Below are positions 9,990 to 21,284 of a DNA stretch of 64,000 nucleotides, in pieces. Both the position numbers and the translations under genes were made by a program. The stretch spans positions 1 through 64,000 of the forward strand of contig JAQWIW010000018.1 of assembly GCA_029248665.1 (NCBI GenBank), in the 5' to 3' direction. The notes under the pieces were generated by a model. That model was not told the DNA's origin, did no database searches, and worked only from the letters and a program-made list of their open reading frames with translations. Source of the DNA: Opitutia bacterium. GTDB taxonomy: Bacteria; Verrucomicrobiota; Verrucomicrobiia; Opitutales; Coraliomargaritaceae. Every line of letters begins with the position of its first letter. The first letter of the stretch is position 1.

Positions 9990-10643
9990 ATGGCCAATAT
10001 ATTTCCTAAGTGGGTAAACTCAGTCCCAATCAAAGTAATCGTAGCATTACTACTAATCAAAACAGCAGTTGTAATTGGAGTGACTTACTATCTCAGCCCT
10101 CAGTACACTCGGGTGGGTTATGCTCCAACGCAACCGGTTGCCTTCAGCCACGAATTTCATGCGGGAACTTTAGAAATAGATTGTCGCTATTGCCATACCT
10201 TTGTTGAGCAATCAGGTCATTCAAATGTACCTGGGACAAATGTTTGTATGTCTTGTCACAGCATGGTGCTGAAAGACGATGCACGACTAGCTACAGTACG
10301 CCAAAGTTATGATTCAGGAGAACCAATACCATGGGTAAGGGTTCATAAAGTACCTGACTACGTTTATTTTAATCATGCAGTGCATGTAAATCGTGGCATC
10401 AGTTGTGTCGAGTGTCATGGTAAAGTAGATGAGATGGAAGTAGTTTATCACGCAAAAGAATTAAGCATGGGATTTTGCTTAAAATGTCACAGAAATCCAG
10501 AAGACCATATTCGACCAGTGGAAGAAGTATATAATTTAGATTGGGAACGACCAAGCGATCCTAGTGCGGTTAAAGAATTAGAAGAATTTGTGCATGATTG
10601 GGGAGTCAACCCGCCTCAAAGTTGCTCTGGATGTCATCGATAA
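9990..10643 (+). CDS. actA: alternative complex III pentaheme cytochrome c subunit
   Basis: Multiheme c-type cytochrome of the quinol:electron-acceptor oxidoreductase (Act complex), on the periplasmic face. The 217-residue protein has an N-terminal membrane anchor (about residues 12-33) and five CxxCH heme sites: CRYCH, CMSCH, CVECH, CLKCH and CSGCH, the last at the C-terminus. Spare His residues (FSHEFHAG, FNHAVHVN) fit bis-His ligation. Length and order match ActA. actB follows 9 bases after. Confidence 0.95.
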   Translation: MANIFPKWVNSVPIKVIVALLLIKTAVVIGVTYYLSPQYTRVGYAPTQPVAFSHEFHAGTLEIDCRYCHTFVEQSGHSNVPGTNVCMSCHSMVLKDDARLATVRQSYDSGEPIPWVRVHKVPDYVYFNHAVHVNRGISCVECHGKVDEMEVVYHAKELSMGFCLKCHRNPEDHIRPVEEVYNLDWERPSDPSAVKELEEFVHDWGVNPPQSCSGCHR

Positions 10644-10652
10644 TACCTAAAC

Positions 10653-13600
10653 ATGAAAGAAAAATCACAAGAACATGGTGCTAAATATTGGAAAAGTCTT
10701 GATGACTTATCCGAAACACCTGCATTTAAGGAATGGGTCGATAAAGAATTTCCATCTGGAGCTTCTGAACTCGAAGGTGTAGGCCGTAGAAATTTCATGA
10801 AAATCATGGCGGCTTCATTTGGCCTTGCAGGCCTTGGAATGACAGGGTGTCGTCGACCGAAGCAACATATATTGCCCTACGCACAACAACCTGAAAATTT
10901 AATTCCTGGAGTTGCCAATTTTTACTGCTCTTCAGTACCTGGCATGACTGCTAATATTCCGGTTATTGTAGAATCGCATCAAGGTAGACCTACAAAGATC
11001 GAAGGCAATCCGTCCTACAAGCCATTTGGTGGAGCAACATCTACCTATAATCAAGCCTCGATACTAGATCTCTATGATCCTGACCGTGCAACTACTTCAA
11101 GTTATAATAAATCAAAAATTACAGCTTACCAAGTAAAGGACTTCTTATTGAGCCTTAAGGAAACATCTCTCGAATCTAAAGGTAACGGACTTGCAGTATT
11201 AGCCGAACCTAGTGCATCACCTTCTAGAGAAGCACTTAAGAAAGCTTTCAAAACTCGTTATCCTGAGGCAACATGGACAGAATATACTCCAAGCCAGTTT
11301 TTGAATACCAGCAAAGCGGCAAAAGCTATTTATGGCTTTTCTGTCAAAAACTCAGTCGATTTTTCTAAAGTAAATCGTATTCTTTCTATTGATTCTGACT
11401 TTTTATCCGAAGGAGATGATGCTTTAGCCAAGTCACGAGGGTTTACTGCGAAAAGAAAGATCCTCAATAAAGATGAGGTATCAAAAATGAATCGCCTTTA
11501 TTCTGTTGAGAGCAATCTAACATCAACTGGATCAATGGCCGATCACCGCTTACGCTTAAGCGTTTCTCAAATGCCTGCTTTTATTGCAAAATTGGGAATC
11601 GAAATTATACGTCTAGCTAAAGTAGGAAGCGAATTAGAAAGCACTTTGTCCGCAATTGCTAGCACTTGCGAAATTGAGGATAATTGGATCAAAGAATGTG
11701 CGGTAGATTTATATGCCTCAAAGGGCCATTCAGTTATTCTTTTAGGCGATCATCTTTCTACTGAGGCACAAGCTCTAGGTTTTTATTTAAATCAAATTTT
11801 ATCAGCACCGCTCGCGTTATTGGAAGATAAGGTTTCCGCACCTGAAATAACTGATTTGGCTAATTCAATAAAGGCAGGATCTGTCAAAACATTGATCGTA
11901 CTTGGAGGAAATCCTATATTTGATGCACCAGCTGATCTCGAATGGAATAAGTTATACAATAATATCGATACAACGATTCACCTTAGTTATTCCTTTAATG
12001 AAACGTCTGCCGAGTCTGATTATCATATCGCACAGTCGCATTATTTAGAAACTTGGTCAGACGGTAGAACACCAGAAGGTCACCTTGTTCCAGTTCAGCC
12101 GCTCATTGAGCCTTTATTTGATACTTTTGACGAATTATCTATTCTCTCAAGCCTTGTACATGATACTTCCAAGGAAAACTACGCTATTGTTAAAGATACT
12201 TTTGCAAATTTGGGCGGTTCAGATTTTAATCAATTTTTAAAAGAGGGTATTTTAGAATCGATTTCTTATGCTCGCTCTTCTGCAACTGTTAGTATTCCAG
12301 CTTTAGCTGAATTACTCAAAAAAGCATCTATGGAAAAAGTGCAGTTGGGACTTAATAATTTAGAGCTACGTTTTATTCCAAGTTTTCATGCCTTTGATGG
12401 ACGATTTGCCAATAATGGATGGCTGATGGAGTGCCCTGATCCTATTACAAAACTTACATGGGATAATGCACTTTTGATCAGTCCACGTTTGGCCAAAGAA
12501 TTGGAAAGCGAATACGGTGTATCTATATTTGCATCCAGTACAGCGATGAATGAGGGCAGTGACTTTTTTAAGAGCGTTAAGGGTGAATTGCAAAAAAATT
12601 CTTCGGTCTTTAAGCGAGGCAAAGAATCTGCAGTTATCGCACAAATTGAAGTTGGGGGTAAGCATTTAGATATTCCGATCCACGTATTGCCTGGCTTAGC
12701 AAACTACACGGTTGTTTTACCATACGGAATGGGCCGCAATCTAGTGGGTAGAGTAGGTGAAAATGTTGGTATCAACACATATGGCTTAAGAACCAGTGAA
12801 GGCATGGGTTTCATTACTGGTGCGAAATTAAAAACCACTGAAAAACGTTTTTACTTAGCCAATACTCAAGAGCACTGGTCTATGGAAGGGCGTGCAATTG
12901 TTCGAGAAGGTAATGTTGATTATTATAAAAAAAATCCTGATTTTGTAAATCAAATGGGTGTGGAATCTCATGCTCCTAAGAATTATGGTTACAAGGATGA
13001 CGCTTCGTTATCAGATAAGTCACAAAATCAGTATCGAGGTAATTCAGCTTACGTACACCCTAAGTTCAATGAGCCTGACCCAAATGTAAAAGTTTGGAAA
13101 GACAAGGAAGAGCTTTATCCTGCGAATCAACAGTGGGGCATGACTATTGATTTAAATACTTGCACAGGTTGCTCAGCATGCGTTGTCGCTTGTCAAAGTG
13201 AGAACAATATTCCTATCGTGGGGAAGGATCAAGTGCTTCGAGGAAGAGAAATGCATTGGATTCGTTTAGATCGCTATTTTTCTGCTGAAAAGTATACTCC
13301 TTCAGAAATTCCAGAAGATGTTCAAGTTTCTTTCATGGGCATGACTTGTGCACACTGCGAAAATGCACCGTGTGAAAGTGTTTGTCCGGTCAACGCGACA
13401 GTACACGATAAGGAAGGTTTAAATACAATGGCCTACAATCGTTGTGTGGGAACTCGCTATTGTGCAAATAATTGCCCATACAAGGTACGTCGTTTCAACT
13501 TCTTTGATTGGAACAAACGCGAAATTGGAGAATTTTATAAAGGACCTCTTGGCCCAGTCGAAGAACCTGAACTTGAAAAAATGAGGGCTAATCCTGACGT

Positions 13601-14063
13601 GACTGTTCGTATGCGTGGAGTGATGGAGAAATGCACTTATTGCGTACAACGTATTCAGGCGGCTAAGATCACTCAAAAAAGTATCGCTGGTGCGAGTAGT
13701 GAAACTGCAGTTCCAGATGGCACAATTAAGACTGCATGTCAGCAAGTCTGCCCTAATGATTCAATTACTTTTGGTGATATCTCAGATCCAAAATCAGAAG
13801 TCTCAAAAATGAAGGCCAGTGATCGTAACTACTCAGTACTTGGTTACCTTAATGTTCGTCCACGTACGACTTATTTAGCTCGTTTGAGAAATCCAAATAA
13901 GTTGATGCCTGATTACTATAAGAAACCGTACGCCTATAAGGCTTACAAAGATCGTTATGGAAGCTCGCAATCAACATCAGGACACGATGCGCATGATTCT
14001 CATGGAGACCATTCACACTCTCATTCTGAATCTCATAACGACGAATCACACCCAGCTCACTAA
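10653..14063 (+). CDS. actB: alternative complex III iron-sulfur/molybdopterin-like subunit
   Basis: Large periplasmic subunit carrying electrons between quinol-oxidising membrane subunits and c-hemes. The 1136-residue protein has a Tat signal ([13 protein letters not shown] near residue 46), then a molybdopterin-oxidoreductase-like domain (about 70-780) that in this family carries no molybdenum cofactor, then a ferredoxin-like domain with cysteine groups [11 protein letters not shown] near 835, [26 protein letters not shown] and CTYC/CQQVCP. This is the fused form of ActB. The last ~28 residues are a His/Asp/Ser-rich tail with nine His, unlike the core. actC follows 13 bases after. Confidence 0.95.
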
Positions 14064-14076
14064 TTTATAAAATATT

Positions 14077-15588
14077 ATGTCTTCGGATACTACAGATTGT
14101 TCAATAGATTCGGCTAAACAAGCTTTGCTCGATAAGGTAGCACCAGCGACCTTAAAGGATCAAAATTTGGTGACCAATAATCGTGAATTCAGTTGGGTGA
14201 CCAACAAAATTTGCAAGATTGTCGAATCGAATACACCTAATTGGTGGTGGGTTTGTATGGCTGTTGCATTGGTAACAGCATCATTCACCTTGATGGGCTT
14301 AATATGGCTTGTAAGTACAGGTGTTGGTGTTTGGGGATTGGCTAATCCTATCAATTGGGGTTGGGCGATTGTTAATTTTGTTTTCTGGATTGGTATCGGA
14401 CACGCGGGTACTTTGATTTCGGCTATCTTATGTTTACTTAAACAAGGGTGGCGTACATCGATTAATCGTGCAGCAGAAGCGATGACAATTTTTGCGGTGG
14501 TTTGTGCGGGTATTTTTCCTCTATTTCACGTTGGCCGTGTTTGGTTTGCTTGGTGGCTTTTCCCTTTACCGAATGCTAATCTTATTTGGCCTCAATTTAG
14601 ATCACCTCTTGAGTGGGATGTTTTTGCCGTTTCAACTTATGGAACAGTATCCGTTTTATTCTGGTACATGGGAATGATTCCTGACTTAGGTATTTTGAGA
14701 GACCGTGCGGTGCAACGATTGACTGCAGGAATCTATGAAGAAACATCTAAATTAAGAGAATCAATCGCACGTGGTACAGATGTATTTAGAAAATATTTCT
14801 ATGGCGTACTTGCAATGGGTTGGCGTAATGCGGGTAATCATTGGCGTAATTACGAAATGGCTTATTTGTTACTAGCAGGTCTTTCTACACCCTTGGTGTT
14901 ATCTGTGCATACAATCGTTTCTTTTGACTTCGCTGTAGCAGTACTTCCAGGATGGCATACAACAATTTTCCCTCCTTATTTTGTTGCCGGTGCGATTTTC
15001 TCTGGATTCGGAATGGTTTTAACTTTGATGCTCCCATTGAGAGCGCTTTATGGCTTACATGATTTGATCACCCAACGACACATTGATAATATGTGTAAGA
15101 TTTGCCTAGGTACTGGTTCAATCGTTGGCTATGCCTACATAATGGAATTCTTTATCGCTTGGTACGGTGCAAATCCTTATGAAAGTTTTGCTTTTATAAA
15201 CCGTGCTTTCGGGCAATACTCTTGGGCATATTACATTATGTTCTCTTGTAATGTATTTACTCCACAGTTGTTCTGGTTTAAGGCAGTTCGTCAAAATGCA
15301 GCCTTGGTTTGGATCATGTCTATTTTAATTAATGTCGGTATGTGGTTTGAACGATTTGTGATTACGGTGACATCGCTTGCCAATGATTTCCTTCCAAGTA
15401 GCTGGGGTTACTACTCGCCAACGATTGTAGATATTTTCACTTTCGCTGGTACCTTCGGATTGTTTTCAACTTTATTTCTTATGTTTTTAAGGTTTTTACC
15501 TCTGATGCCAATTGGTGAAATTAAATTTATTATGCCTCAAGCGGATCCGCATGGGCATAGTGACGATGATGGAAAGGAGTCAGAATAA
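14077..15588 (+). CDS. actC: alternative complex III membrane subunit, NrfD-like
   Basis: Polytopic membrane subunit of the NrfD/PsrC family, the likely quinol site in the Act complex. The 503-residue protein shows about ten hydrophobic segments from residue 60 to 470, including [18 protein letters not shown] and the conserved [11 protein letters not shown]. The cytoplasmic N-terminus and the C-terminus, with a short His/Asp tail ([13 protein letters not shown]), flank them. Length is normal. Its last base overlaps the actD start, showing tight coupling. Confidence 0.94.
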
Positions 15589-16121
15589 TGTCAGAAGAAA
15601 TTTATGGTATAGTTGCTAGCTTTAAAGACACACCGTCTTTATATCATGCTGCAGAAAAAGTACGTGATGCTGGGTTTAACCACTGGGACACATACTCTTC
15701 ATTTCCTATTCACGGAATGCCGGAAGCACAGGGACAGAAACGTTCAAAAGTGCCTATTTTTACTTTTGCTGGCGGGGTTACAGGATTAACACTGGGTACA
15801 ACAATGGTTTGGTATATGAATGCATTCGATTATCCATTAATCGTTGGTGGATACCCATTCTTCAGTCCGGTTTTCCCTTTTCCTATTATGTATGAGCTAA
15901 CCATTCTTTTAGCTGCTTTTGGAACATTAGGAGGCATGTTCATCATGAATTTATTACCTCAGCATTATAACCCTTTGTTCAATTGTGCAAAATTTCTTGA
16001 GGTATCGGATGACCGTCTGATGATCGCGATTGAAGCGAAAGATGGACAATTTGATCCAGTGGCAACAAAACAATTTCTAGAATCCATTGGTGGTTTTGAT
16101 ATAGAGGAGGTTACGGCTTAA
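15588..16121 (+). CDS. actD: alternative complex III subunit D (DUF3341)
   Basis: A 177-residue membrane subunit with two hydrophobic segments (about 60-80 and 100-125) after an N-terminal soluble domain that starts [20 protein letters not shown], the usual beginning of DUF3341. It helps assemble the Act core and has no cofactor motif. The start codon overlaps the last base of actC, and one of the few Shine-Dalgarno-like sequences in the window (AAAGGAG) lies upstream. Confidence 0.93.
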
Positions 16122-16127
16122 TTTATC

Positions 16128-16781
16128 ATGCGTACATTTTTAACAATTTATGTTTTAGTCATAGCTGTGACGGTTTCCATTTTAGGCTTCCGTGGCACTT
16201 TAACCGAAAAAGAACCGTTTGAGGTGTTTAGCGATATGGATCGCCAAGCTAAGTATAAACCACAAGCGGAAAATGGCTTTTATCTAAATGGTCAAAATGA
16301 CCGATTACCACCAAAGATGACAATGTCTCGTGGTAATGCTTTAGAAATGAAAGAAGTCTTTGCCACTGACTATACGGCCAACTCTGCAGCTAAAGAATTA
16401 TTGCTTTCAGGCAAAGACGCTGATGGAGAGTTTTCGGATGTATTCCCTTATCCAGTTGATTTCAAACTAATGCAGTACGGAAAAGAGAGTTACAATATTT
16501 ACTGCATGACCTGTCATGGTGCAGCAGGTGATGGTAATGGCGTGACTAAGCCTTATGGTATTTTAGCAACTTCTTATCATGATGACCGATTGAGAGATGC
16601 ACCTGATGGATATATATATGATGTTATCACTAACGGTAAAGGTTTGATGTATGGCTTAAAGGATCGTTTGTCCAATAAACAAAGATGGGGCATAGTGCTT
16701 TATCTGAGAGCTTTACAACGTTCGCAAAGTGCATCACTTGAAACATTATCTACAACAGAAAAATCAGAATTAGGACTATAA
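16128..16781 (+). CDS. actE: alternative complex III monoheme cytochrome c subunit
   Basis: A 217-residue c-type cytochrome of the Act complex with an N-terminal anchor and one heme site CMTCH near residue 127 in a typical cytochrome c fold (GKESYNIYCMTCHG). Met residues after it (GLMYGLKDRL) can give the distal ligand. It probably hands electrons to CcoO or the extra cytochrome c encoded just downstream. actF starts 5 bases after its stop. Confidence 0.93.
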   Translation: MRTFLTIYVLVIAVTVSILGFRGTLTEKEPFEVFSDMDRQAKYKPQAENGFYLNGQNDRLPPKMTMSRGNALEMKEVFATDYTANSAAKELLLSGKDADGEFSDVFPYPVDFKLMQYGKESYNIYCMTCHGAAGDGNGVTKPYGILATSYHDDRLRDAPDGYIYDVITNGKGLMYGLKDRLSNKQRWGIVLYLRALQRSQSASLETLSTTEKSELGL

Positions 16782-16786
16782 ATAGT

Positions 16787-18064
16787 ATGAGCGATCAGAA
16801 AGATATTCAAAAAATAAATTCAACCGGTTTTTTTGCATTGGTAATCGGCTTAGTGGCTTTGGCCATTTCTCTTTATGGAATTTTTTCCGGACTTGAGACT
16901 GAAGATCCAGCTAGAGGCTTTTTAAGTTGGTTAGTAGGTTTGTCCTTTTGGTTATCCATAGCACTTGGCTTACTGTTTATTACTCAAATATGGTATGTGT
17001 TCCACGCACGTTGGCCGACAATTATTCGTCGTCAATGCGAGCACTTCTTGAGTGTATTTCCTTGGCTGTTCCTTTTATTCATTCCTTTATTTATCATCCC
17101 TCAAATCATTGGAGAGCCTGGTATCCTTTGGAAATGGTTAGATGGTGCTAATGCATTACCAGGTGGTCACGGAACGGTACAAGATGACCCTTTATACCAA
17201 TGGAAGTCAGTTTATCTAAATTCAAATGCTTTCATCGTTCGTGCGGCTATTTATTTCTCTGTTTTTATTGGCTTATCTTATTTTCTTAGAAAATGGTCCT
17301 TCGATACCGACATAACAGGCAATGTGGAAAATACCCATAAAGCGAGACGACTTTCTTCAGTAGGATTATTCTTACTGGCAACAGCATCGACACTAGCAGG
17401 TATTGATTGGTTTAAGTCATTAGATTACCACTGGTTTTCTACCATGTACGGAGTTTGGTTTTTTGCAGCATCTATGCGTGCTGCTTTAAGTGCAATTTTG
17501 ATCTTCTGCATCATCGTTTCTGTAAAAGGTTACATGAAGGGCACTTTCAAACAAGCGCACCGTTATGACCTTGGTTGCATGATGTTGGCCTTTACCATCT
17601 TTTGGGCCTATATTAGTTTCTCTCAGTATTTCTTGATCTATAATGCGAATATACCTGAAGAAACTTATTGGTATAACATTAGAGAACATGATGGTTATGG
17701 CGTTAAGAATTCATGGTGGGTTATTAGTTTACTCCTCATCTTCGCCCATTTCATAGCTCCATTTTTAATGTTACTTTGGTACAAAACTAAAATTGTGGTG
17801 AATCGCTTAGTATTTGTTGCGATATGGATATTGGTTTTCCATCTTGTTGATCTCTATTGGAATTTAATCCCTGGTAAGGTGATTGATGCGACTGCTTCAC
17901 ATGGCTACTATATCAGACAATTTTCTGTTGAGGTCTTTGATATAACTGCAATTATCGGAATAGGGGGCATCTGTATTTGGTCGGTCTGCCGTAGTATGCT
18001 TAAGGCGGAACCGATTCCGATTAAAGATCCAAATATTCTCACTTCTCTCAATCATTCTGAATAA
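16787..18064 (+). CDS. actF: alternative complex III membrane subunit F, NrfD-like
   Basis: A second NrfD-type membrane subunit, paired with ActC in the complex. The 425-residue protein has about ten hydrophobic segments and the family patterns STLAGIDWFKSLDYHWFSTM and YNANIPEETYWY. Charged and polar residues inside segments fit a proton-translocation role proposed for ActC/ActF; the mechanism is not settled in the literature I know. A small membrane protein gene follows, then the cbb3-like genes. Confidence 0.93.
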   Translation: MSDQKDIQKINSTGFFALVIGLVALAISLYGIFSGLETEDPARGFLSWLVGLSFWLSIALGLLFITQIWYVFHARWPTIIRRQCEHFLSVFPWLFLLFIPLFIIPQIIGEPGILWKWLDGANALPGGHGTVQDDPLYQWKSVYLNSNAFIVRAAIYFSVFIGLSYFLRKWSFDTDITGNVENTHKARRLSSVGLFLLATASTLAGIDWFKSLDYHWFSTMYGVWFFAASMRAALSAILIFCIIVSVKGYMKGTFKQAHRYDLGCMMLAFTIFWAYISFSQYFLIYNANIPEETYWYNIREHDGYGVKNSWWVISLLLIFAHFIAPFLMLLWYKTKIVVNRLVFVAIWILVFHLVDLYWNLIPGKVIDATASHGYYIRQFSVEVFDITAIIGIGGICIWSVCRSMLKAEPIPIKDPNILTSLNHSE

Positions 18065-18077
18065 ACGATTTATTATT

Positions 18078-18356
18078 ATGGGTAAAAGCGATTTTAAATT
18101 TTCATCCTTGTTCTCCATTATATTTGGAGGCCTAGCTATTTTGATTTTTCTTCTGATTCTTGTTGTGACTTATTTGCCTAACAAGCCAGAGGATGTAGAT
18201 TCTGCTTTGAAGCAAGATCGAATAAACAAAGCGGAAACAATCCGCGCAGAGGGCATTAAGAAATTAAACCAATTAATACTTATCGATACTGAATCTGCTA
18301 AGATTCCTATCGAGAGAGCGATGGAGCTGACTCTTAGCGAATATCGCCAAAACTAA
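18078..18356 (+). CDS. small membrane protein of the Act/cbb3-like block
   Basis: A 92-residue protein with one transmembrane segment (about 15-35) and a mainly helical periplasmic part ending with IPIERAMELTLSEY. A similar IPIxxAMEL ending occurs, as I recall, in small proteins encoded next to Act and caa3/SCO clusters, so it is probably a minor subunit or assembly factor. It lies 13 bases after actF and 35 before the ccoN-like gene. No cofactor motif. Confidence 0.65.
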   Translation: MGKSDFKFSSLFSIIFGGLAILIFLLILVVTYLPNKPEDVDSALKQDRINKAETIRAEGIKKLNQLILIDTESAKIPIERAMELTLSEYRQN

Positions 18357-18391
18357 TTCAGTATTTAAATCTTTAGCTAATTCCTTTAATT

Positions 18392-19822
18392 ATGTCTGTG
18401 TCATCAGCTGGTAGTCCCCATGATTCGCTCAATACAATCGATAACTCGATTAATAAAGCCGTCTTTTATTTTATTTTGTCTGCGATTACTTGGTTGGCAC
18501 TGAGTTCATTATTGGGATTGATCGGTGGTATTAAGACGGTGATTCCTAGTTTTTTAAGCACTAATGAAGGTTTCACTTTTGGTCGTATCCAAGCCATGCT
18601 CAATACTACTTTGTTAATGGGGTGGTGTAGTAATGCAATTTTCGCTGTTGCTTTCTGGATCATGGCTCGTTTGTCAAGTACGCCAATCAAACATGGCGGC
18701 ATTCTTTTAATTGCGGGTGTGATTTGGAATATTGCCCTGAGCCTTGCCTTAATCGGCATTTTTATTGGTGATTTGACCGCTTATTCTTGGATGGAATTCC
18801 CAAGCTATACATCGGGTATCTTTTTGCTGGCTTATACTTTAATAGCAGTTTGGGGAATCGTTACCTATCGTCATAAACAAAATGACTACTCCTACGTCTC
18901 TCAATGGTATATCTTAGGTGGACTATTATGGTTTCCTTGGATTTTTGTCATCGGACAGTTTTTTATCAATTGGGTGCCAGTTAGAGGTGTTCTTCAGTCG
19001 ATTGTTCATGCATGGTATATCAATAATGTCTTTTACCTTTGGTTATGCCCAATCGCTTTAGGAGCGTGTTATTATTTCATTCCAAAATTATCGAATACGG
19101 CGATTCGTAGTTACCATTTGTCGGCTTTAGCCTTTTGGACATTCGTTCTATTTGCTTCATGGTCTGGGCTGACTTACTTAATCGGTGGCCCAGTTCCGGT
19201 ATGGTTAACGACAACTTCAATTGTCTTTGCCGTATCTTTAATCATCCCAGCCTTAATATTTTATACCAATCTTATCGGGACTGCTTTATCTAGTTTCAGT
19301 CAGTTTAAAAATAACTTAGCCCTGAAATTTATTATTTTTGGAAGTGCTGCTTTCATTTTACATCTGTTTGTAAAGATGGGGCTTTCCATTCGTTCAGTTG
19401 ATGCTCTTGCTCATTTTACAATGATTTATGAAGCTCACCATTGGCACCTTATTTATGGTTTCTTTAGCATGGTTTTCTTCGGTGCTTTTTATTACCTAGT
19501 GCCTACATTGCTCAAACATTCTTATAAATCTAATGTGCTGCCTAATTTCAATTTCGTACTCTCTGCACTTGGGATCATCATCCTGCTAGTGGCTTTGTAT
19601 GGAGCTGGTTGGCAACAAGGCACACAGTTCGCAAATGCCGAACTCTCTTTCCTTCAAATTGCCAATGATTTAACTTTTTGGATGCAGCTAAAATTGGTTG
19701 GCCTAACGATTCTCTTTATCGCTAATCTGTTGTTTGCATTCAATGTCGTTGCTTTGTTGCTCAGTAAGCTACTGGATGTGTTGCCTAATTTTTCAAACGA
19801 TGAAATTAATCCGAATACCTGA
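18392..19822 (+). CDS. CcoN-like heme-copper oxidase subunit I lacking active-site ligands
   Basis: A 476-residue, about 12-segment membrane protein alignable by eye with CcoN of cbb3 oxidases (FGRIQAML for FGRLRPLH; WYINN for WYGHN; FGAFYYLVP for FGALYHLVP). Against the canonical protein the low-spin heme ligand H60 is L70, the copper-B ligands H207, H257 and H258 are N211, T261 and Y262, and the cross-linked Y251 is A255. Only the region of the paired heme ligands H345/H347 keeps histidines (H349, H350, H352). The frame is intact and the neighbours are conserved, so this is a divergent family rather than a pseudogene. It cannot be a normal O2 reductase and may be a scaffold for CcoO in the Act assembly. 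Confidence 0.85.
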   Translation: MSVSSAGSPHDSLNTIDNSINKAVFYFILSAITWLALSSLLGLIGGIKTVIPSFLSTNEGFTFGRIQAMLNTTLLMGWCSNAIFAVAFWIMARLSSTPIKHGGILLIAGVIWNIALSLALIGIFIGDLTAYSWMEFPSYTSGIFLLAYTLIAVWGIVTYRHKQNDYSYVSQWYILGGLLWFPWIFVIGQFFINWVPVRGVLQSIVHAWYINNVFYLWLCPIALGACYYFIPKLSNTAIRSYHLSALAFWTFVLFASWSGLTYLIGGPVPVWLTTTSIVFAVSLIIPALIFYTNLIGTALSSFSQFKNNLALKFIIFGSAAFILHLFVKMGLSIRSVDALAHFTMIYEAHHWHLIYGFFSMVFFGAFYYLVPTLLKHSYKSNVLPNFNFVLSALGIIILLVALYGAGWQQGTQFANAELSFLQIANDLTFWMQLKLVGLTILFIANLLFAFNVVALLLSKLLDVLPNFSNDEINPNT

Positions 19823-19831
19823 TTTAATAGC

Positions 19832-20512
19832 ATGAAACATTTCTCCATTTTATTATTTGGTATCTTTATTGTTCTCACATCCTCTTTCTTGGGCCTGATT
19901 TCTTCTAGCCTAAATCAACTAGGAGGTTTGAAACAATCCACCGAAAGTTTGGAATTGGATGATGCAGGTGAGCTTGTTTTAGTAGATGGCGATCCTTTAT
20001 ATCCAATGAAATTATCTGGCTCATCTGAGCAAGGACATATGGAATACGTTAAATTGGGCTGTGTTAATTGTCATTCCCAACAAGTGCGTAGAGAAGAATT
20101 AGGAAATGATCTTCAGCGAGGTTTCGGACAAAGAGTTTCAGTACCTCGTGACTTTATTCTGCAATCGAATATGGTTCTCGGTTATTCTCGTCTTGGTCCT
20201 GATTTATCCAGTGTCGGCTCAAGAAAATCTGATTTGAATTGGCATTTAATGCATTTGTATAATCCGCAGATCACTTCTCCGGGCTCATTAATGCCTCCTT
20301 TCCCATTTTTATTTGAAACAATTAAAATCAGTGAAGTTGCTGCGACTAGCGGTGCACTTGAGTTCCCTGAGGGAAGTCCTTATGCACCAGAGAATGGTAT
20401 TGCTATTATTCCTTCGAGAAGAGCGGTTGCACTGGTTGAATATTTATTAAATCTTGATATAAATTATAACTTACCTGAAGCAGTAGTAACCAAAAATGAC
20501 ACAGGAGAATAA
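19832..20512 (+). CDS. ccoO: CcoO-like monoheme cytochrome c subunit
   Basis: A 226-residue membrane-anchored c-type cytochrome. The N-terminal segment (residues 4-22) anchors it, and the heme site CVNCH near residue 76 is followed by the CcoO patterns SQQVRRE, RLGPDLSSVG, WHLMHLYNP and the distal-Met motif SLMPPFPF. All heme residues are present, in contrast to the neighbouring CcoN-like subunit. It should carry electrons from the Act complex. The gene overlaps the next by 17 bases. Confidence 0.88.
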   Translation: MKHFSILLFGIFIVLTSSFLGLISSSLNQLGGLKQSTESLELDDAGELVLVDGDPLYPMKLSGSSEQGHMEYVKLGCVNCHSQQVRREELGNDLQRGFGQRVSVPRDFILQSNMVLGYSRLGPDLSSVGSRKSDLNWHLMHLYNPQITSPGSLMPPFPFLFETIKISEVAATSGALEFPEGSPYAPENGIAIIPSRRAVALVEYLLNLDINYNLPEAVVTKNDTGE

Positions 20513-21284
20513 AGACTTAGATGAATCCAAAGAATTGCAGGACGATGCAATTCAGGAAATCCATCAGAATTTACTAAAGGATAAAGAATTACCTAAAGAG
20601 GGGTTTTCCTTTCTACCTATTGCTTTAATCTTCTTATTTGCAGGCGTTTGTTTTTGGGGTGGTATTTATATCGTTACGCATGGGGGCGAGTTTAGGTGGG
20701 ATGGATATCATCCAGATTTTGTTGCAAGCGACAAATCCTTATCTATTCCAGAAAAGTCTCTATTTGAGATCGGTGAAAAGGTTTTTATTGCTCAGTGCGT
20801 ACAATGCCACCAAAACGACGGAAAGGGTATTGCAGGCGTTTATCCCCCTTTAGTTGAATCAAGTTGGGTTTTAGGTCATCAAGAGGTCTTAGCCAGAATC
20901 CTCATCAACGGAATGAATGGTAAGGTTGTCGTCTTAGGTAAGACTTACAATGGTAACATGCCTGCCTTTGGTCCCTCAGGTCTCAATTTGAAGCCCAAGC
21001 AGATTGCGGGAGTCTTAAGCTACATTAGACAAGAATGGGGCAATGCAGGATCTGACATCACTGAAGATACCATGAAAAATTACATGGCCATGTACAATGC
21101 ACGTACAACACCATGGACATCCGAAGAGCTTTCATTGAATTTATCACCAGAGCCTGAGGCTCCGTCAAAAGACACAGACATCGACATATCCGATGATAAT
21201 AAAATGTTAGACACCCATGGTGACGAAGACCATACTGACAGCGAACATTCAAATATGATTCTGTCACACAAAGAGCACTCATAG
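20496..21284 (+). CDS. monoheme cytochrome c, CcoP-like, with acidic/His-rich tail
   Basis: A 262-residue membrane-anchored cytochrome c. One transmembrane segment lies near residues 38-60, and one heme site CVQCH near 101 in a class I domain (LFEIGEKVFIAQCVQCH, NMPAFGP with the distal Met). Canonical CcoP has two hemes, so this is a CcoP-like or stand-alone cytochrome. The last ~50 residues are rich in Asp, Glu, Ser and His and resemble the tail of ActB. Start overlaps ccoO by 17 bases. Confidence 0.85.
   Translation: MTQENKDLDESKELQDDAIQEIHQNLLKDKELPKEGFSFLPIALIFLFAGVCFWGGIYIVTHGGEFRWDGYHPDFVASDKSLSIPEKSLFEIGEKVFIAQCVQCHQNDGKGIAGVYPPLVESSWVLGHQEVLARILINGMNGKVVVLGKTYNGNMPAFGPSGLNLKPKQIAGVLSYIRQEWGNAGSDITEDTMKNYMAMYNARTTPWTSEELSLNLSPEPEAPSKDTDIDISDDNKMLDTHGDEDHTDSEHSNMILSHKEHS

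Follow-up and report, generated by a model that had tools for sequence, protein, structure and literature searches.

An ACIII-linked CcoN-like subunit that has recurrently lost its redox-centre ligands together with ccoS and is retained under purifying selection

The CcoN-like protein encoded in the window (the whole stretch of DNA analysed, 64,000 nucleotides at positions 1 to 64,000 of contig JAQWIW010000018.1, Opitutia bacterium assembly GCA_029248665.1) was found to lack the ligand set for heme b, heme b3 and CuB as well as the cross-linked tyrosine, a loss which is firm at the level of the sequence. The gene lies in one operon with actABCDEF, ccoO and ccoP (Table 1), the same loss was observed in other lineages of the order, and it was accompanied there by disappearance of ccoS. 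We consider it probable that the ligand-less CcoN is a cofactor-free pseudo-oxidase core that acts as the scaffold of a heme-c relay in which CcoO and CcoP link ACIII to a caa3 oxidase.

Table 1. Features of the ACIII-CcoNOP operon in the window, with the ligand positions of CcoN (P. stutzeri numbering for the reference residues)
Feature	Positions	Strand	Remarks
ActA, pentaheme cytochrome c of ACIII	9990..10643	+	five CxxCH; named by position and motif
ActB, Fe-S / molybdopterin-like subunit of ACIII	10653..14063	+	named by position
ActC, NrfD-type quinol subunit	14077..15588	+	PF03916 match
ActD	15588..16121	+	named by position
ActE, monoheme cytochrome c	16128..16781	+	one CxxCH
ActF	16787..18064	+	named by position
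actF-ccoN gap, 327 bases	18065..18391	+	FixS/CcoS gene absent here, present in intact relatives
92-aa single-TM protein	18078..18356	+	motif IPIERAMELT; found in both intact and ligand-less operons
CcoN-like pseudo-oxidase subunit, 476 aa	18392..19822	+	ligand-less
L70, at low-spin heme b ligand H60	18599..18601 (codon)	+	phmmer, MAFFT
N211, at CuB ligand H207	19022..19024 (codon)	+	phmmer, MAFFT
A255 to Y262	19154..19177	+	cross-linked Tyr251 to A255, CuB H257/H258 to T261/Y262; phmmer, MAFFT
H349 (at b3 ligand H345), H350, W351 (at b ligand H347)	19436..19444	+	phmmer, MAFFT
CcoO (FixO)	19832..20512	+	one CxxCH heme c site C77-H81, M154
CcoP-like cytochrome c	20496..21284	+	one CxxCH, C101-H105, M155

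The ccoN reading frame is open and matched PF00115 (E 1e-36), and the best PDB relatives of its product were cbb3 CcoN chains, e.g. 3mk7. The score against TIGR00780 (117 bits) was below the equivalog cutoff of 583; this cutoff is non-discriminating, since the intact ACIII-linked relatives also fell short of it (234-245 bits). Ligand columns were read from a phmmer alignment to 3MK7 and from a MAFFT alignment with approximately 30 relatives, in both of which all ligand regions were free of gaps. The assignments of L70, N211, A255, T261 and Y262, made by hand in the original prediction, were borne out by both methods, and Q67 was found at the position of R57. A single His (H349) of the six His ligands stands in a ligand column, and the cross-linked Tyr is absent. 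The original prediction had further described a HHWH cluster near H345 and H347; H349 does occupy a ligand column, but no other ligand column is kept and the cluster varies within the window genus (HHWH, HHWQ, LNWH and FDWH), where H349 is not conserved, and a conserved HHWH metal site was thus ruled out. Misalignment was likewise ruled out: the ligand regions were gap-free, 84 rows of relatives (some of them fetched twice) gave the intact string HHYHHHH in the same columns, the structure agreed, and the missing histidines were not restored. These 84 intact rows compare with 41 ligand-less rows carrying 22 different replacement strings, the number found in the main ligand-less set.

The structural comparison with 3MK7 that had been proposed alongside the original prediction gave a CcoN fold. 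An AlphaFold model of the window CcoN (52 sequences, pLDDT 91.4) superposed on P. stutzeri CcoN with a Z score of 50.7 and an rmsd of 1.5 Å over 444 residues; the model has the cbb3-type COX1 fold, and by this prediction the window protein is a CcoN complete in all but its redox centre.

Matches to the window CcoN were found in 49 of 57 related genomes, the second match in some of them being an ordinary cbb3; close matches to the gene were seen in the MAG PL36313bin_20 (83% identity) and on a Puniceicoccaceae bacterium MED-G32 contig (81%). The gene order of the window (actA-F, the small TM gene, ccoN, ccoO, ccoP) was conserved across the loci reaching that far. For the 92-amino-acid single-TM protein, which has a conserved IPIERAMELT tail, no Pfam family was found above cutoff; it might belong to the ACIII-Cco complex as an additional subunit. 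As low-scoring copies escape the order-wide PF00115 survey, a 37-genome sample was searched instead. When act-linked homologues were gathered to ask whether the loss is clade-wide, this proved to be so for every member of the window genus that yielded the gene and for all copies read in genus g9, and the ligand-less form also occurred in scattered genera across the order, with loci titled Rariglobus, Opitutus and Didemnitutus among the ligand-less ones. Most relatives in Opitutales, including most genomes of the same family, share the operon but have an intact HHYHHHH site in it, Coraliomargarita and Cerasicoccus being examples. The end state differs between lineages, because one copy (L105, positions 391-1893, from a Chthoniobacterales MAG) has the string HNAQRYH, in which both low-spin heme b ligands are kept and the CuB, b3 and Tyr residues are lost; judged by its sequence, it may be an intermediate or else a genuine relay through heme b. 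In the intact ACIII-linked CcoN proteins (L042, L054 and others) the canonical cbb3 glutamate (E323 in P. stutzeri) was replaced by I, V or T, and these proteins may form a distinct C-family branch. Three genomes (G059, G069 and G141) apparently contain two ACIII-type CcoN-like copies each. In addition, a very weak COX1-like reading frame (L135 on G044:C24; 29 bits, 455 aa) was observed with a CcoO-like match on the same contig, and may represent another emptied CcoN that lies apart from the act operon.

Ligand state was mapped on a tree built from the linked ActA, C, D and F (the Act tree) and on CcoN trees from which the ligand columns had been removed. Ten changes were counted on the Act tree, of which 8 are forced by well supported branches, and 3-4 on the CcoN trees. 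The changes are read as losses because regain of six ligands is implausible. Loss of the ligands is recurrent, with at least 8 changes forced on the Act tree. How many losses there were exactly is uncertain, given the fast evolution of ligand-less CcoN and the attraction between long branches; the larger CcoN tree, which is affected by long branches, joins many of the ligand-less ones. That this tree needs 3 changes compared to 10 on the Act tree speaks for an alternative course of events, itself compatible with a scaffold role, in which an old paralogue or donor lost its ligands on one or two occasions and the resulting ligand-less form then spread as ccoN was replaced in situ. Such a course is improbable, as a single ligand-less CcoN clade was rejected (AU P =0.005, smaller CcoN set without the longest branches) while placement of the window genus within the clade of its own family was not (AU P =0.35, CcoN set without the longest branches), genus g9 sits inside an intact clade in every tree, and the replacement residues differ between lineages. 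A single origin of the ligand-less form was ruled out by the smaller CcoN set and likewise by the Act tree.

FixS/CcoS is needed for insertion of heme and Cu into CcoN. In intact loci a second small gene between actF and ccoN matched FixS/CcoS (PF03597, E 5e-5), and an HMM was built from eight of these genes. With this HMM, CcoS was present in 61/61 intact loci and absent from 29 of 30 ligand-less loci (26 loci once genomes fetched twice are removed). Among thirty further loci it was found in 16/16 intact and 0/14 ligand-less; L143, one of the thirty, was scored 'no' solely by a frame-offset rule and has a CcoS match at E 1e-22. Seven of the thirty were repeats, and the new ones gave 10/10 and 0/13, respectively. 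Across both samples about 38 of 39 ligand-less loci had no ccoS, and in one (L055/G044) a diverged ccoS persists. On the Act tree there were 8 independent pairs, and CcoS changed the same way in 7.8 of them on average (sign test, P =0.008). No ccoS was detected in the operon gap of the window with the CcoS HMM or in the window genome with PF03597, nor in the other ligand-less genomes with PF03597 apart from a match in G044 whose significance is doubtful; this Pfam model is weak and misses two intact genomes as well. CcoG was also considered as a second marker of loss and was uninformative, as it tracks a separate fused CcoNO oxidase and not the ACIII-linked operon. In Rhodobacter capsulatus without CcoS, according to PMC8267372 (citing Koch 2000 and Kulajta 2006), CcoN lacks hemes b and b3 and CuB, and the CcoNOQP complex still assembles but is inactive.

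The host genome (1.42 Mb, 97.8% complete) has a caa3-like locus on contig C30 comprising ctaA, ctaB, coxB with a C-terminal CxxCH, coxA, coxC, coxD and ctaG (named by reading of the sequences, coxA by PF00115), and no bd oxidase was found in it. A further oxidase-family match was present in 29/29 of the ligand-less genomes examined at 90% completeness or more (15 verified in the first set and 14 in the second), the second match in one of the genomes (G032) being a 231-base fragment only. Three fragmented and unverified genomes (G071, G147 and G201) had a single low-scoring oxidase match and no second, and G001 (79% complete) was similar; in the former three the missing oxidase likely reflects assembly gaps, since relatives have two oxidase matches. 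Conversely, in three genomes of one genus (G009, G016 and G020, 97-99% complete) an intact ACIII-linked copy was the only oxidase-family gene found and no bd oxidase was found, and because of this the intact ACIII-linked form very probably functions as a terminal oxidase. A spare oxidase permits the loss of the ligands but does not explain it, since genomes with the intact form mostly have another oxidase as well.

The partner genes of the window, ccoO and ccoP, encode heme c sites, and among ligand-less loci the CxxCH motif was kept in 34/34 CcoO and in 32/33 CcoP sequences, the exception being a masked sequence. CcoO T118 (window CcoO numbering) was kept in 59/61 intact compared to 2/34 ligand-less loci, while T121, Y79 and P156 shifted less sharply; these residues possibly face the lost hemes. 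Within CcoN, the seven ligand and Tyr positions were kept in 5-27% of the 22 ligand-less types, whereas a median of 73% was kept for the other 137 residues that are near-invariant in intact copies (P =5e-5, ignoring relatedness). R57, W203, N252 and T342 were mostly gone along with the ligands, and 22 scaffold residues were unchanged in all 22 ligand-less types.

The suggestion that CcoN serves as a membrane scaffold or relay connected with CcoO and the Act complex agrees with these data, as CcoNOP is locked to actABCDEF, the heme c motifs are kept and scaffold residues are conserved. The ancestral operon would have encoded ACIII (ActA-F), a C-family oxidase CcoN-O-P and the maturation factor CcoS, its product probably being a quinol-to-O2 supercomplex. 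In many lineages owning another terminal oxidase (here caa3), the redox centre of CcoN and the ccoS gene of the operon have been lost, and the CcoN membrane scaffold, the heme c of CcoO, the heme c of CcoP and ACIII have been kept. The cofactor-free CcoN would hold the hemes c of CcoO and CcoP on ACIII, and electrons would exit ACIII via CcoP/CcoO to caa3, either directly or by a soluble cytochrome c, with no reduction of O2 on the spot. Once heme b had gone the heme c of CcoO would be without its usual acceptor, and its onward electron transfer is assumed here. We infer the absence of bound heme and Cu, the physical attachment to ACIII and the direction of electron flow, and the direction of the relay is the least certain step of the mechanism. 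On balance we favour the wider reading that ACIII and the pseudo-cbb3 module would form a distinct quinol:cytochrome c (caa3) relay complex, evolved several times from an ACIII-cbb3 oxidase whose redox centre and ccoS were erased, with the cofactor-free core as a recurrent, selected respiratory building block.

Strong conservation of a polytopic fold after catalysis was lost might also mean that CcoN has gained a new membrane function, such as the conduction of ions or protons, or a novel reaction within the emptied cavity. We regard this as unlikely, as the independently emptied copies share no newly conserved set of polar or metal-like residues and a scaffold role accounts for the same conservation; the new reaction suggested in the original prediction was accordingly left without support, there being no replacement His/Met/Cys set common to the ligand-less clades. 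It is also quite unlikely that hemes are still bound via other residues, so that the subunit would still relay electrons through heme b with altered ligands: the fold persists, isolated histidines occur in some copies and L105 retains H60 and H347, but the conserved histidines of the window genus (H101, H206 and H242) differ from those of g9 (H239, H341, H387 and H445), the four residues R57, W203, N252 and T342 were lost together with the ligands, and ccoS was lost at the same time.

Rates of substitution in CcoN gave dN/dS values of 0.06-0.07 for the window genus, 0.09-0.11 for the ligand-less genus g9 and 0.012 for one intact pair, all of them rough as several dS values are near saturation. 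Selection on ligand-less CcoN is relaxed yet strongly purifying, and the description of a subunit that has lost its site and is kept intact was right; intact homologues do exist and selection is somewhat relaxed (0.06 vs 0.012), but this does not refute retention because selection stays strongly purifying. That CcoN is a pseudogene on its way out, with the oxidase lost and the frame drifting, is close to refuted, for although CcoN evolves faster than the Act genes of the same operon (in the window genus, 55-83% identity compared to 91-97% for ActC) and one ligand-less locus retains a diverged ccoS, the g1 copies contain no internal stop, ccoN is present in every genus member in which ActC was found (6/7), dN/dS is 0.06-0.11, all 22 ligand-less types share the 22 scaffold residues, and the gene was retained through genus-wide and older losses.

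The active site of heme-copper oxidase subunit I is a textbook invariant. Here it has been emptied again and again together with its insertion factor while the protein was retained under selection, which provides natural replicates for asking about the non-catalytic roles of CcoN in holding CcoO and CcoP and docking on complex III; the co-evolution also supports the proposed role of CcoS. Such genes can pass for working oxidases in annotation and so give false evidence of microaerobic respiration. In a 2026 genome paper (PMC13274419), three genes adjoining ActABCDEF were given as a caa3 oxidase. A search of the open-licence literature for ACIII in combination with CcoN, and for inactive heme-copper oxidases, yielded no description of a ligand-less ACIII-linked CcoN, which is weak evidence of absence; the fold family is already known, and so are ACIII-oxidase partnerships (PMC8361435).

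The cbb3 CcoN of P. stutzeri (3MK7) shares with the window copy (22% identity) the whole fold and the adjoining ccoO and ccoP, while the latter is ACIII-linked and lacks the ligand set, the cross-linked Tyr and ccoS; it is classed as a pseudoenzyme variant of the C-family core and not as a cbb3 oxidase, because the defining features tested for were not found in it. Intact Opitutales ACIII-linked CcoN proteins (L042 of Coraliomargarita sp. SDUM461004 and L078 of IMCC26134; approximately 37-42% identity) lie in the same operon, are orthologous by position and share the scaffold residues, and unlike the window copy they retain HHYHHHH and a ccoS gene. In the supercomplex of ACIII and an oxidase in Flavobacterium johnsoniae (PMC8361435, ref 47) the partner is an active A-family oxidase, whereas in the window the putative partner is a ligand-less C-family core. 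The ccoS-deficient R. capsulatus CcoNOQP (Koch 2000 and Kulajta 2006, cited in PMC8267372) resembles the window system in having CcoNOP without CcoS, the CcoN cofactors being absent there and probably absent here; it is a laboratory mutant in which the ligands are present, whereas the state in the window is natural, fixed and repeated.
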